Assembly: GCA_963682055.1 (NCBI GenBank)
Contig: OY821742.1
Location: forward strand, 28,677,060-28,741,059
Source: Primula veris
Lineage: Eukaryota > Streptophyta > Magnoliopsida > Ericales > Primulaceae
Length of the DNA stretch: 64,000 nucleotides
Direction of reading: 5' to 3'
Shown here in pieces: positions 44,155-51,400 of this stretch. Numbering within the stretch: position 1 is the stretch's first letter; each line of letters opens with the position of its first letter. The notes below the pieces were generated by a model. The model was given only the letters and a program-made list of their open reading frames with translations, searched no databases and was not told the DNA's origin. Made by a program: the position numbers and the translations under genes.

Positions 44155-44527
44155 TAGGGATGGCAATTGGGCCGGGTTTCTCAAAACCCGACCCGACCCG
44201 ACCCACGCATCAATCCGCACATAATCCGACCCGACCCGTTTATACCCGACCCGACCCGACCCGTTTGACCCGGAATTTTTTTCCTTTTCTTATTATTCTT
44301 TGTTTTTATACACGTTATAGGAACAAATAGTAACAACAAAATCTGCATAATAAGTAAATCCCAATTCCAAACAAAGTTCATCACCGTTCTTCACTGAACA
44401 TACATCATACATGCAAATATTAAAGTCTGTAAAAATAACCTTTAACTGGAAGTAAGTTGTTTATATATGCTAGTCTTATAATCTTAATCAACTGACAGTG
44501 TGCTGCTGCTTTTGTGGGCAAAGTTAC

Positions 44528-44860
44528 CTCCATAAGTAAACGAAGCTGGTGTACATGATCTCTACCAGGAAATAAAGGCTTTCGATCCATCAATTCCATA
44601 AATATGCACCCTACTGACCATACGTCAATAGCCGAAGAATAATCAGAAGAATTCAACAATAGTTCTGGTGCCCTGTACCACCTTGTGACAACATATTCAG
44701 TCATAAAATCGGACTCAGAAGTGACACGAGCTAATCCAAAATCGCATATTTTAAGGTCACAATTGACGTTCAATAGAAGATTGCTAGGTTTCAAGTCCCT
44801 ATGCAATACATTTGCAGAATGTTTGTATTTCAACCCTCGGAGAATCTGGTACAAAAAATA
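44528..44860 (-). pseudogene. Captured MAP kinase exon (MPK3/MPK6-like)
   Basis: A 333-bp exon, open throughout, encodes kinase subdomains VI to IX: catalytic loop HRDLKPSN, Mg-binding DFG, activation loop with the TEY phosphorylation motif ([15 protein letters not shown]) and [14 protein letters not shown]. The wording matches plant group-A MAPKs of the MPK6/MPK3 type. It is preceded by an intron end (TTGTTGTGCAG at 44861) and followed by a donor (GAG/GTAACTT at 44528/44527), so genomic DNA was captured, not cDNA. One clear substitution is LKYKHS where LKYIHS is usual. The ATP-binding lobe and C-terminal lobe are absent, so no active kinase can result. It lies in the 3' part of the hAT, in the same orientation as the transposase. 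Confidence 0.92.
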
Positions 44861-45731
44861 CTGCACAACAAAAAGAAATATGATATTCAGACTTGCTGAT
44901 ATGAAGATGACAAAATAAGAGTTTTTACTTGTACACTAGCCTACCGCGAGATTTTTTTAATTTTGTGCATTGACCTATCATTTTTTGTGTGTTGATACAC
45001 TAAACTACTGTAAATAGAACGACCAGGGTACCCCTCCGTCTAAATTAACAGAAAATCTCACAATTTTACAAACATTTCGGTAGTTATAGCTTTTGTCCAC
45101 TAACTTATTGGCCATTTATCATCTTTGCACATTAACCTATATGCTAACATATCACTTTTGTACTGATTGACCAATTAAAGTCAGGTTATTGTCGTAGTAA
45201 CAGAAACATTGTTAGTAGGAACAAAATAGAAAAAAAAACCGAGATATATTAATGTGCTGAAAACTCTAGAACTACCAAACACAAACTATCATATAAAAGG
45301 TGTATGAGCAAAATCATTGAAAATTTGAACGAACGATGAGATGATCTAGAACCTGGCAATGCTCTTCTGACAAAATCTGATTGGAACGGATAATTTGTCT
45401 ATTTTTCCAGTTATATTTAACGATCGACTAGTACAGGGACGTTTCAAAATTAACTATGGCTGTTAAGTTTCAAGGAGCCTGAACATTATATGGTCGACCA
45501 TCTCATAAGCAAGTCGTAAACTACGAAAAGACTCATGCTACCAGTAAGGTAAATATTAAAGTTTTCGAAAACAACATGGATCAAAATACTCATAAATACA
45601 TGTTTCCATACTACACCAAACACTTTCTCAGCTTTTCTTAATTAAAGAGAAGAAAATACCTCTACTGTAAGAACAAACAAGCTCATCAACTACATTAAGC
45701 ATCTTCAAATCCTGAAATTCATTGTGAAAGA
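44861..45731 (-). other. hAT 3' region between transposase and MAPK exon
   Basis: No coding sequence recognised. The piece next to the exon reads as MAPK intron; the rest is AT-rich. On the minus strand TTTCAG / ...AGTAGAG / GTATTT at about 45715-45655 looks like a short exon with splice sites, but matches nothing I know. Confidence 0.4.
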
Positions 45732-47965: not shown

Positions 47966-48440
47966 ATAAAAGTGATTTTTTTAATGATTTTTTTGTGTGA
48001 TTTTTTTCATTTTTTTTATAATTTTGTGATTTTTTTCATTTTTTTCATTTTTTTTATAATTTCTTGTGATTTTTTTTATTTTTTATAAAATTTTTATTTT
48101 TTTTATTTTTTTATAATTTTTTTTTTATTTTTTTTATTTTTTTTTTTTATAATTTTTTTAAAATTTTGTGATTTTTTGTGATTTTTTTTTTTCATTTTTT
48201 GTGATTTTTTTCATTTTTTTTTTATTTTTTTATAATATTGTGATTTTTTTCATTTTTTATTATTTTTTTTTTTGTAATTTTTTTATTTTTTTTGTAATTT
48301 TTTGTGATTTTTTCATTTTTTATAATTTTTTTATTTTTTTTATAAAAATACATTATTATTTTATTTTTTACAATTTTTTGTGGTTTTTTTTCATTTATTT
48401 TGAGATTTTTTGCATTTTATATAATTTTATGTGTTTTTTT
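47966..48440. repeat. Right low-complexity arm of the foldback element
   Basis: T-rich units GTGATTTTTT, TCATTTTTT and TATAATTTTT, complementary to the left arm. Apparent open frames here are low-complexity artefacts. Confidence 0.9.
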
Positions 48441-51400
48441 TCCATTTTTTATGAAATATGTGTATGGCGTTTTGGTAAATAAATTAAATAATTAAAAAGT
48501 GGTACCTATAGGGAATGTGAAATTATGGAGGTACCTAGGAGAAATATAATTTCAAAAGTGGTACCTATTGGGCATTAATTCAATAGGAAAACCCTTTTGC
48601 GATTGCCACCAATTAAGAATATCGAATTTTCCTTTTCTAGAAACTAATTTTTCTCTCAAATACACATCTAATTCGAATTCTGAGCTTGTAGTAGTCTCAT
48701 TTACGAACACATCAAAACCACTTAAATTATCTTCATCATCCACATCCATGTTATAGTTTCTCGAAGACGATGTAACATCATTATTAACAGCATTAAATTT
48801 CGATTTGTAATCATTAAACAATGTATAAACGGATTCTTGAATTCTCTCGACTTCATGTTTACTTGTCACTCCAACTCCATACAACTTATTGAAATAAAAC
48901 TCAACAAGTTTTAATTTAAACCTTGGATCTAAAATAGAAGCCATACTCATTATCAAGTGGCAATCAGACCAATACTTGTTATATTTCTCTATCATTTTAA
49001 AAGCCATTGCTACAACTATTTCATTTGAACTAAAAAGCCATTTATCCAATTCTAATTTTATCTCACAAATTTTTTTTAAAAATAAATTAGCAGTGGGGTA
49101 ACTAGTACCAGAGAAGATTACAATCGCATCCGCAAAAAATTTAAGTCTCGCACATATCTCCTCAGCAAAAATCCAATCATCACTAGATGGCAAACTATCA
49201 TAACTTTTATCTTTTTTCTTAGCTTTCCTGAATACATCTTTGTAGAGCAAAGCCCTAGAAAGCATATAATAGGTCGAATTCCACCGCGTTTTAACATCAA
49301 GTTCGAGCCCCTTTGTATAAGGAATATGCAGCTCAGCCGCGACAGCCTCAAATTTCTCTCTTCTAGATTGTGTCGCGGTCCAGAAAACACAACTAACTCT
49401 AATTTTTTCAACTTTATTCCCAACAGCTGCTAAACCTTCCTTAACAATAAGATTTAGTAGATGTGCACAACAACGAACGTATAATAATTTCCTGTCCATT
49501 AAAAACGAATCCCTGGGTAGCTCAGTCGAAATCAACGGTATCATAGCATCATTTGTTGTAGCATTATCAACTGTAATTGCTGAGATCTTATGATCGATAT
49601 TCCAAAAATCTATGGTTTCGATCACAACATTCGATAACACTTGTTTGTTATGTGGAATTGCCACATAGACAAATGTAAGAAGTCGATTTTGCAAACGCCA
49701 TTTATCGTCAATGAAATGGGCCGTAATTGCCATAAAACCTTTCTTTGTTGGCTTGGCGGACCACATGTCAAAGGTAATTGATAGTCTACGAACACTTTCT
49801 AACAATTTATACGTTTTCTCCCTTTCCACATCATAAACCTTTATAATATCTTTTTTTATCGTGTTCCTAGACACAATATTAAAATCTGGTTGAAGCCCTC
49901 CAACAAACATTCTGAAACCTACATGATCGACTATCGAAAGGGGATACTCGTGTAAAATGATCATAGAAGCTAAATCTTTTCGCGATTTAACCTGGCTAAA
50001 TTCGTATTTCGGTACTTCTTCAAATTTTGTTTCCTTTCCTTTGTTTATTTCTTTTTGTTTTTTCTTACACCTATTAGCATGACTTTTCAAATGACTCGTC
50101 CCTCCCGTGTGCTTCGCGGTTAATTTCTTCTTACAAATATTACAATGTGCCCAACAAATATCCTTACTTACTTCTTCTCTCTTAAAATCTAACCAGACTT
50201 TGGACCACAATCTTGAATTTTTCTTTTTATTTGCACGAGATGAATTAATAGTAAGAGCGGGACTCGAGAAACTGTTATCATCAATTTGTTCAAACCGTGA
50301 CATTGTTCACCTAGCAATAACCCAATAAACAAATATTATACAAAAAAATACAGGTCCGGTGATAAAAAAGCTAAAAATAAGCATAACCCTTTTTTATTTT
50401 TTGATAAGCCAAATAAGCGCAACCCATTATTAAGCATCTAGCAATAACAATTTAAGTATATTAGAAAAGCCTAAAAATCTTATTTTTCCAAAATTTTCAT
50501 ATTTACCCGGTAAAAATTTATAATAATCTAAATTATTTTTTACAAGAATACCCAAAAATATAAAAGAAAAAAAACTGACAAAAAAATGAAAATAACAAGC
50601 TAAAATAAAATAAGGATATATATATATATATATATATATTTATATGTAGAGAGAGAGTGAGGAACCTAGTACCCAAGAGTTGTGAATCTTGTGATGGCTA
50701 TTGATAATAGCTTCCTCTCATATTAGTGATGGCTAATATATATTTTATATATATTTTATCGTTGAAGGAGTCTGTCTATGTTAGAGAGAGAGAGAGTATG
50801 TGATATTTTATTGTTGAAGGAGTCTGTGTATGTTAGAGAGGGAGAGGGTATGTGTTTTGGTTTTGGTTTTGGTTTTTGTTTTATTATTCAATATATTTCT
50901 AAATTGCACAAAGTTGCACAAAAGTGCAAAGTAACCCAATCCAATCCGACCCAAATAATACTGCACTTTTATCCAACCCGCACCGGGTCGGGTCGGGTCG
51001 GCTCAAAACCCGGGGTTCTGCCATCCCTACGTATGACTTCTAATTAAGTCTTACTAAAAGAATCACTTCTCCAGCCAATTGATTTTCACTTTAATCTAGC
51101 ATAGTGACACAGGTGGTTTTTTAACATGGTGATAAATTAATCATCATCCAATTGATACTAGTTTCATTCATATATACTCTTTCGATTATACGGTATAAAC
51201 AATAGGTCATACTACCAAATACAAACATGCTACAAGCACTCTTCAGTTTGTTGTCCCATGCATAACAGCCAACAGAGCTTTCTATTGTATTTAAGAAACA
51301 TGTGGTAACACAATGTATACTTACATGTGCAGAACATATCATACCAAGACAAATATAATTGTTACGGATTTATCTATATTTCATGCAATAGTTACCCATG

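Follow-up and report, generated by a model that had tools for sequence, protein, structure and literature searches.

A hAT transposon of Primula veris carrying pieces of two host genes, probably patched in during repair

The window analysed here is a stretch of 64,000 nucleotides from the genome of Primula veris (assembly GCA_963682055.1, contig OY821742.1, positions 28,677,060 to 28,741,059), and its subject is a hAT transposon that holds, between its own ends, coding DNA of a host mitogen-activated protein kinase (MAPK) gene of the MPK6 type. A first-pass annotation had described a hAT with a perfect 8-bp target-site duplication carrying a 333-bp MAPK exon and its splice sites; flanks, reading frame and a match to the Pkinase domain (E=3e-39, with MPK6 the best match among solved structures) confirm that description, as well as an exon open over 111 codons and in sense with the transposase, both being on the minus strand. 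The 8-bp duplication (CGTATGAC), the short (11-bp) terminal inverted repeats (TIRs) and a transposase with an RNase-H fold and a C-terminal dimerisation domain (PF14372, 1.1e-29) place the element in the hAT superfamily (Table 1). It had also been described as encoding its own transposase, which holds for the coding sequence but not for its present state: a nested element, overlooked in the first-pass annotation, interrupts the gene inside the dimerisation domain and splits the PF05699 match into two parts (5.9e-4, at 20 bits and under the 21.4 cut-off, and 1.5e-19). This nested element contains a 21-bp unit repeated in tandem about 45 times and is putatively MULE-like, a label taken from its 9-bp duplication and inverted repeats rather than from a transposase. 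The transposase is broken today because of this insertion, and not because of the capture.

The captured DNA is larger than the single exon with native splice sites that was first described: the exon is real, and it forms part of a 1226-bp insert that draws on two host genes and includes the tail of exon 3 as well. The insert lies 53 bp past the transposase stop codon, and its limits can be read from relatives within the genome. In five of seven other family copies read (L050, L051, L052, L054 and L057), position 44452 is joined straight to 45679, CTGAAAG running into CTCATCAAC; the remaining two are uninformative at the insert site, L053 being without the region and L058 too diverged. From these insert-free relatives it follows that the capture was a clean insertion in which no transposon DNA was lost, so that the transposase gene was left whole. 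At this site a single capture event is seen when the window element is set beside the seven; copies of the family were collected with its terminal part, which brought up many short ones (40 out of 270 candidates scored, hence a lower bound), and with its transposase (14 of 14 scored). Stops interrupt the transposase in the three relatives compared (3 in L050, 4 in L051 and 22 over the pieces of L054), and the best preserved among these four copies is the capture-bearing one of the window.

Exon 4 (44860-44528, minus strand) has an acceptor ending in TTGTGCAG and the donor GTAACT, and RQIIRSNQILSEEHCQ, translated at 45400-45353, is the end of the preceding MAPK exon. This exon-3 tail was detected in the window by tblastn with four MPK6-type protein queries (E 5e-5 to 7e-4), and its best 15-residue score is 69, whereas 200 shuffles of the stretch never exceeded 24 and the window elsewhere reached 24. 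Spliced together, the two coding pieces would give a product of 126 residues, with up to 96% identity to MPK6-type proteins.

Table 1. Features of the hAT element, its captured insert and the element nested in it (window positions; L013 is the C9 donor locus, C9:29073400-29083300)
Feature	Position	Strand	Remarks
hAT element	44155-51029		perfect 8-bp target-site duplication
Left target-site duplication CGTATGAC	44147-44154		identical to 51030-51037
Right target-site duplication CGTATGAC	51030-51037		matches left flank
Left 11-bp TIR TAGGGATGGCA	44155-44165
Right 11-bp TIR, likewise TAGGGATGGCA	51019-51029
hAT terminal part, downstream of transposase gene	44155-44452		family copies match up to 44452
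Captured insert, 1226 bp	44453-45678	-	AAG at either end; limits can move by 3 bp at most
68-bp filler from C1 gene	44448-44515	+ (coding sense of that gene)	100% identical to C1:24358926-24358993
MPK6 block 1: opening 18 bp of intron 4, all of exon 4 and a stretch of intron 3	44510-45321	-	98.4%, 815 columns, L013 4711-5524
Complete MPK6 exon 4, 333 bp, 111 codons	44528-44860	-	native acceptor and donor
MPK6 block 2: exon-3 tail (45 bp, 15 codons, 45353-45397) and start of intron 3	45318-45397	-	L013 5655-5734, 0 substitutions
MPK6 block 3: part of intron 2	45392-45545	-	L013 5866-6019, 0 substitutions in 154 bp
MPK6 block 4: intron-2 stretch 1.1 kb farther upstream in parent	45543-45685	-	L013 7145-7287, 2 substitutions in 143 bp
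Last transposase exon	45732-45847	-	stop codon TAG at 45732-45734
Predicted transposase intron	45848-46102		GT...AG ends
Transposase, C-terminal part of dimerisation domain	46103-46280	-	Dimer_Tnp_hAT 1.5e-19
Main open frame of transposase (575 stop-free codons)	48582-50306	-	RNase-H fold plus initial portion of dimerisation domain
Nested element, putatively MULE-like	46281-48581		long inverted repeats, imperfect (about 74%); 9-bp duplication
9-bp duplication AATAGGAAA of nested element	46272-46280 and 48582-48590

Both donors are present in the same genome. A search of the Primula veris assembly (436.5 Mb in 34 contigs) with window positions 44400-45000, in which all 12 candidates were scored, found its best match outside the window at C9:29078110-29078600 (99%), within an MPK6-type gene whose exons 2-6 are stop-free and whose exon 1 was not found within the fetched stretch (L013). 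Element and gene share 329 of the 333 bases of exon 4, with both splice sites equal, and differ at 11 of 1188 aligned sites over the four blocks (0.9%; the total counts 13 overlap sites twice). Other MAPK genes were rejected as parent, the MPK6-type gene on C1 (L014) reaching 89% and L016, L017 and L019 at most 76%, as against 98-99% for C9. Judged by these alignments, the parent of the captured MAPK DNA is the MPK6-type gene on C9, which bears out the MPK6-type parent proposed at first pass. MAPK intron homology does lie beside the exon, so that the first-pass description withstands the test proposed with it: the insert has pieces of introns 2 and 3, and the opening 18 bp of intron 4, in common with the parent. 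Since introns were kept, DNA was copied rather than mRNA and a retrocopy is ruled out. The filler derives from an intron of a C1 gene with UBA and ubiquitin-hydrolase (UCH) domains: the matching stretch begins 4 bp ahead of a GTAAGT donor-like site and sits, on the same strand, between UBA-domain pieces and a UCH piece (at this locus, L018, three of six pieces scanned carry UBA or UCH domains and three carry none). We take this gene to be of the UBP14 type. As a separate observation, one of the other MAPK loci (L016 8603-9233, C1:44.47 Mb) has hAT-end-like sequence (74-89%) less than 2 kb from the first matched exon of its gene, which is MPK3-like by guess.

A search for further hAT copies with the exon found one (L015/L056, at C1:22765456), which bears only part of it, about the last 42 codons, and has an internal deletion. 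This copy is flanked by an 8-bp duplication of its own (TACGTAGC) and shares with the window copy both the joint of hAT to filler and that of filler to MPK6. As the duplications differ (CGTATGAC in the window) and the joints are held in common, the loaded elements have moved. Over the roughly 200 bp of captured DNA that both copies have, a count by eye gave 7 differences, all of them changes on the C1 copy's own branch; with 44400-45000 as query, a piece of the window that takes in part of the insert, no third capture copy was met. A host exon lying outside the transposon is ruled out, and an assembly chimera is unlikely, by the perfect duplication around the element and the recurrence of the outer joints in the C1 copy. 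Independently of these points, the C1 locus holds about 3.4 kb of other sequence (L015 5500-8917, C1:22.77 Mb) between parts matching 50854 and 50958, probably a nested insertion.

How the insert was put together can be approached through its joints. The four MPK6 blocks are collinear with the parent, of which stretches of about 0.13, 0.13 and 1.1 kb are skipped; the second of these takes in the exon-3 acceptor together with the exon's initial 93 bp, so this loss took place in the element, while the first and third gaps may instead be insertions into the parent. Exact microhomology at the six joints amounts to 1, 6, 4, 6, 3 and 7 bp, a sum of 27 as against 4.6 expected under random joining, and none of 200,000 random draws reached 27; the last joint (7 bp) was scored on L052 and L054, L050 and L051 differing nearby and giving no overlap. 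Filler from other chromosomes, collinear skipping and microhomology are hallmarks of template-switching repair, as in the model proposed for animal Pack-TIRs (PMC8277862). The most probable account, to which we give considerable though not full confidence, is a recent patchwork repair with template switching inside the hAT, followed by transposition, with the insert now a passenger. A break or stalled fork would have arisen in a transposase-coding hAT, between AAG and CTC; repair synthesis would have switched by short microhomology first to the intron of the C1 gene and then to the MPK6-type gene on C9, copying four collinear stretches and skipping others, before rejoining the hAT through AAGCTCA. 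The loaded element, with its transposase gene whole, would have kept transposing until the putatively MULE-like element inserted into that gene. That no transposon DNA was lost favours a break inside the element, its source being perhaps excision, perhaps a stalled fork; the animal study likewise argued for a break inside the element, from closely spaced breakpoints (PMC8277862).

Several observations weigh against this account. Three of the joints lie inside the MPK6 part and could be later deletions, and the joint at which the hAT passes into the filler (joint 0) has exact homology of 1 bp only. Rates are also uneven, with some 7 own changes per 200 bp or so in the C1 copy as against 0.9% divergence between window and parent. 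It is conceivable, though we think it unlikely, that the hAT took up one continuous 2.6-kb piece of the C9 gene along with the C1 scrap, and that internal deletions mediated by microhomology shortened it afterwards: the four blocks are collinear and in a single orientation, and the 3-6 bp of microhomology at the internal joints is what deletions also leave. Such a history would nonetheless require filler synthesis or template switching for the C1 filler and both outer joints, and 0.9% divergence leaves little time for three separate deletions. The C1 copy cannot arbitrate between switching and later deletion, because it ends before the internal joints. The AAG at both ends of the insert could, alternatively, be taken for the 3-bp target duplication of a separate small mobile element that brought the gene fragments with it, yet the ends run on into the C1 gene and into MPK6 intron 2 with no room for transposon termini, the parent too has AAG at that joint, all that a repeat search over 44155-45760 turned up was five inverted pairs of 13-19 nt, and the search with part of the insert met hAT-linked copies solely in the window and at the C1 site; such an origin is scarcely credible.

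At assumed rates, 11 differences in 1188 sites would put the capture at about 0.4-0.7 million years ago. Four codons of exon 4 differ between element and parent, and at three of them (90, 95 and 102) the differing bases are shared by element and C1 paralogue, from which it follows that the parent changed; two of these three altered its amino acids (M90 and A95). The fourth difference is at codon 13, where Lys in the element stands against Ile in the parent, in the C1 paralogue and in 103 of 103 MPK6-type proteins (of 120 listed, these 103 had full cover without gaps and at least 88% identity, and the other 17 were dropped). This Lys, K28 of the spliced peptide, is the sole residue private to the element, I8, V47, S90 and S91 having been dropped as signs of decay on finding them in the C9 parent. 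Most probably the captured exon is a passenger, though a lack of constraint is only thinly supported by one private amino-acid change in 126 codons, and within exon 4 the parent gene is more changed than the element. A functional exon, spliced into transposase or neighbouring transcripts or giving rise to small RNAs that would silence the MPK6 gene on C9, might accord with the intact acceptor, donor and frame, with the sense orientation and with the placement of three of the four codon differences, two amino-acid changes included, on the parental side. The fragment begins past the transposase stop codon, however, exon 3 is without an acceptor, and the exchange of Ile for Lys falls where Ile is invariant in every protein compared, so that a function of this kind is very improbable. 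The donor gene has unusual residues of its own (Met at codon 90 and Ala at codon 95 of exon 4, with changes in exons 3 and 5); as its exon-4 oddities arose after the capture, constraint on it may be weaker than on the C1 paralogue. Elsewhere in the window, open frames at 582-4420, 13681-17145, 23802-29388 and 40364-42241 appear by eye to belong to two Ty3-gypsy elements, one LINE and one Copia; part of the first, compared with a protein database, had no close match, the best reaching about 69% over 98% of the query.

Set beside known capture systems, the window element is a well-resolved case of a known, uncommon kind of hAT gene capture, with steps unusually fully evidenced. Capture had been called less usual for hATs at first pass, in agreement with a study of maize Ds, where it is described as rare and gene fragments are reported in 2 Ds2 and 9 Ds-l4 elements (PMC3260210), though precedents exist, transposase-coding ones included. 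Like maize Ds2-22 and Ds-l4-354, the Primula element is a hAT with an intron-containing gene fragment from another chromosome; unlike Ds, which is non-autonomous and in many Ds2 copies has filler in place of much of the Ac interior (PMC3260210), it lost nothing and its transposase frame stayed open until the later nested insertion. With maize Pack-hATs (PMC8903248) it shares captured coding DNA between hAT TIRs (here MPK6 exon 4, the exon-3 tail and introns), 8-bp duplications and, given two copies with different duplications, mobilisation of that DNA; Pack-TYPE elements are there defined as non-autonomous, whereas this element encoded a transposase, its 575-codon frame, read as sequence only, being open as far as the nested insertion. 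In animals, 208 of 370 Pack-TIRs lie in hATs, likewise with filler captured inside a transposable element with microhomology; they are mostly single-copy, unlike the present case, and the authors considered the fit of their models to plant Pack-MULEs worth exploring (PMC8277862). The open-licence literature searched, where the query naming MAP kinase required all its terms jointly, gave no account of this MAPK capture, and a query there on the lengths of MAPK exons came back empty.

Further parallels come from grapevine, whose Hatvine-6 elements have similar transposases and TIRs with variable genic inserts (PMC2528002): there too hATs sharing transposase and TIRs bear host exons and introns, but with 13-bp TIRs and 9-bp duplications as against 11 and 8 here. 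Among 120 transposase matches listed, most Vitis relatives show 41-51% identity in local alignments; in a 38-row tree without any Hatvine-6 sequence the window hAT is placed outside the Vitis clade, with support of only 78/85. Nine relatives were chosen from the 120 for odd domains or length and then domain-scanned; seven (P0006, P0009, P0021, P0098, P0106, P0115 and P0119), six of them from Vitis, carry host domains on the C-terminal side of the hAT dimerisation domain, and the scan found none in P0087 and P0113. The Vitis fusions (P0006, P0021, P0098, P0106, P0115 and P0119) join hAT transposase to host gene pieces, three with two genes each: a Ras-type GTPase; a kinase nearest CDK11B among solved structures; HMG-CoA synthase with DUF707; COPA/B TPR with Met-tRNA synthetase; and eIF3-p135. 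Some of these fusions may be annotation artefacts, and only in-sense downstream pieces could appear as protein fusions at all. We would offer only as a long shot the idea that the region just past the stop codon of transposase-coding hATs might be a tolerated pocket in which broken elements are patched with host DNA, hATs thereby keeping their transposase and becoming self-moving carriers of in-sense gene pieces, with the Vitis fusions products of a like process in another clade.

The pickup of host genes by cut-and-paste transposons has mostly been argued from indirect traces. Here a single genome holds insert-free relatives, both donors, every joint, a mobilised copy and a donor divergence below 1%, and it is this combination that makes template switching in a plant hAT closely readable. 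A new function is not among the implications of the case; what it shows is a capture that left the transposase gene whole.

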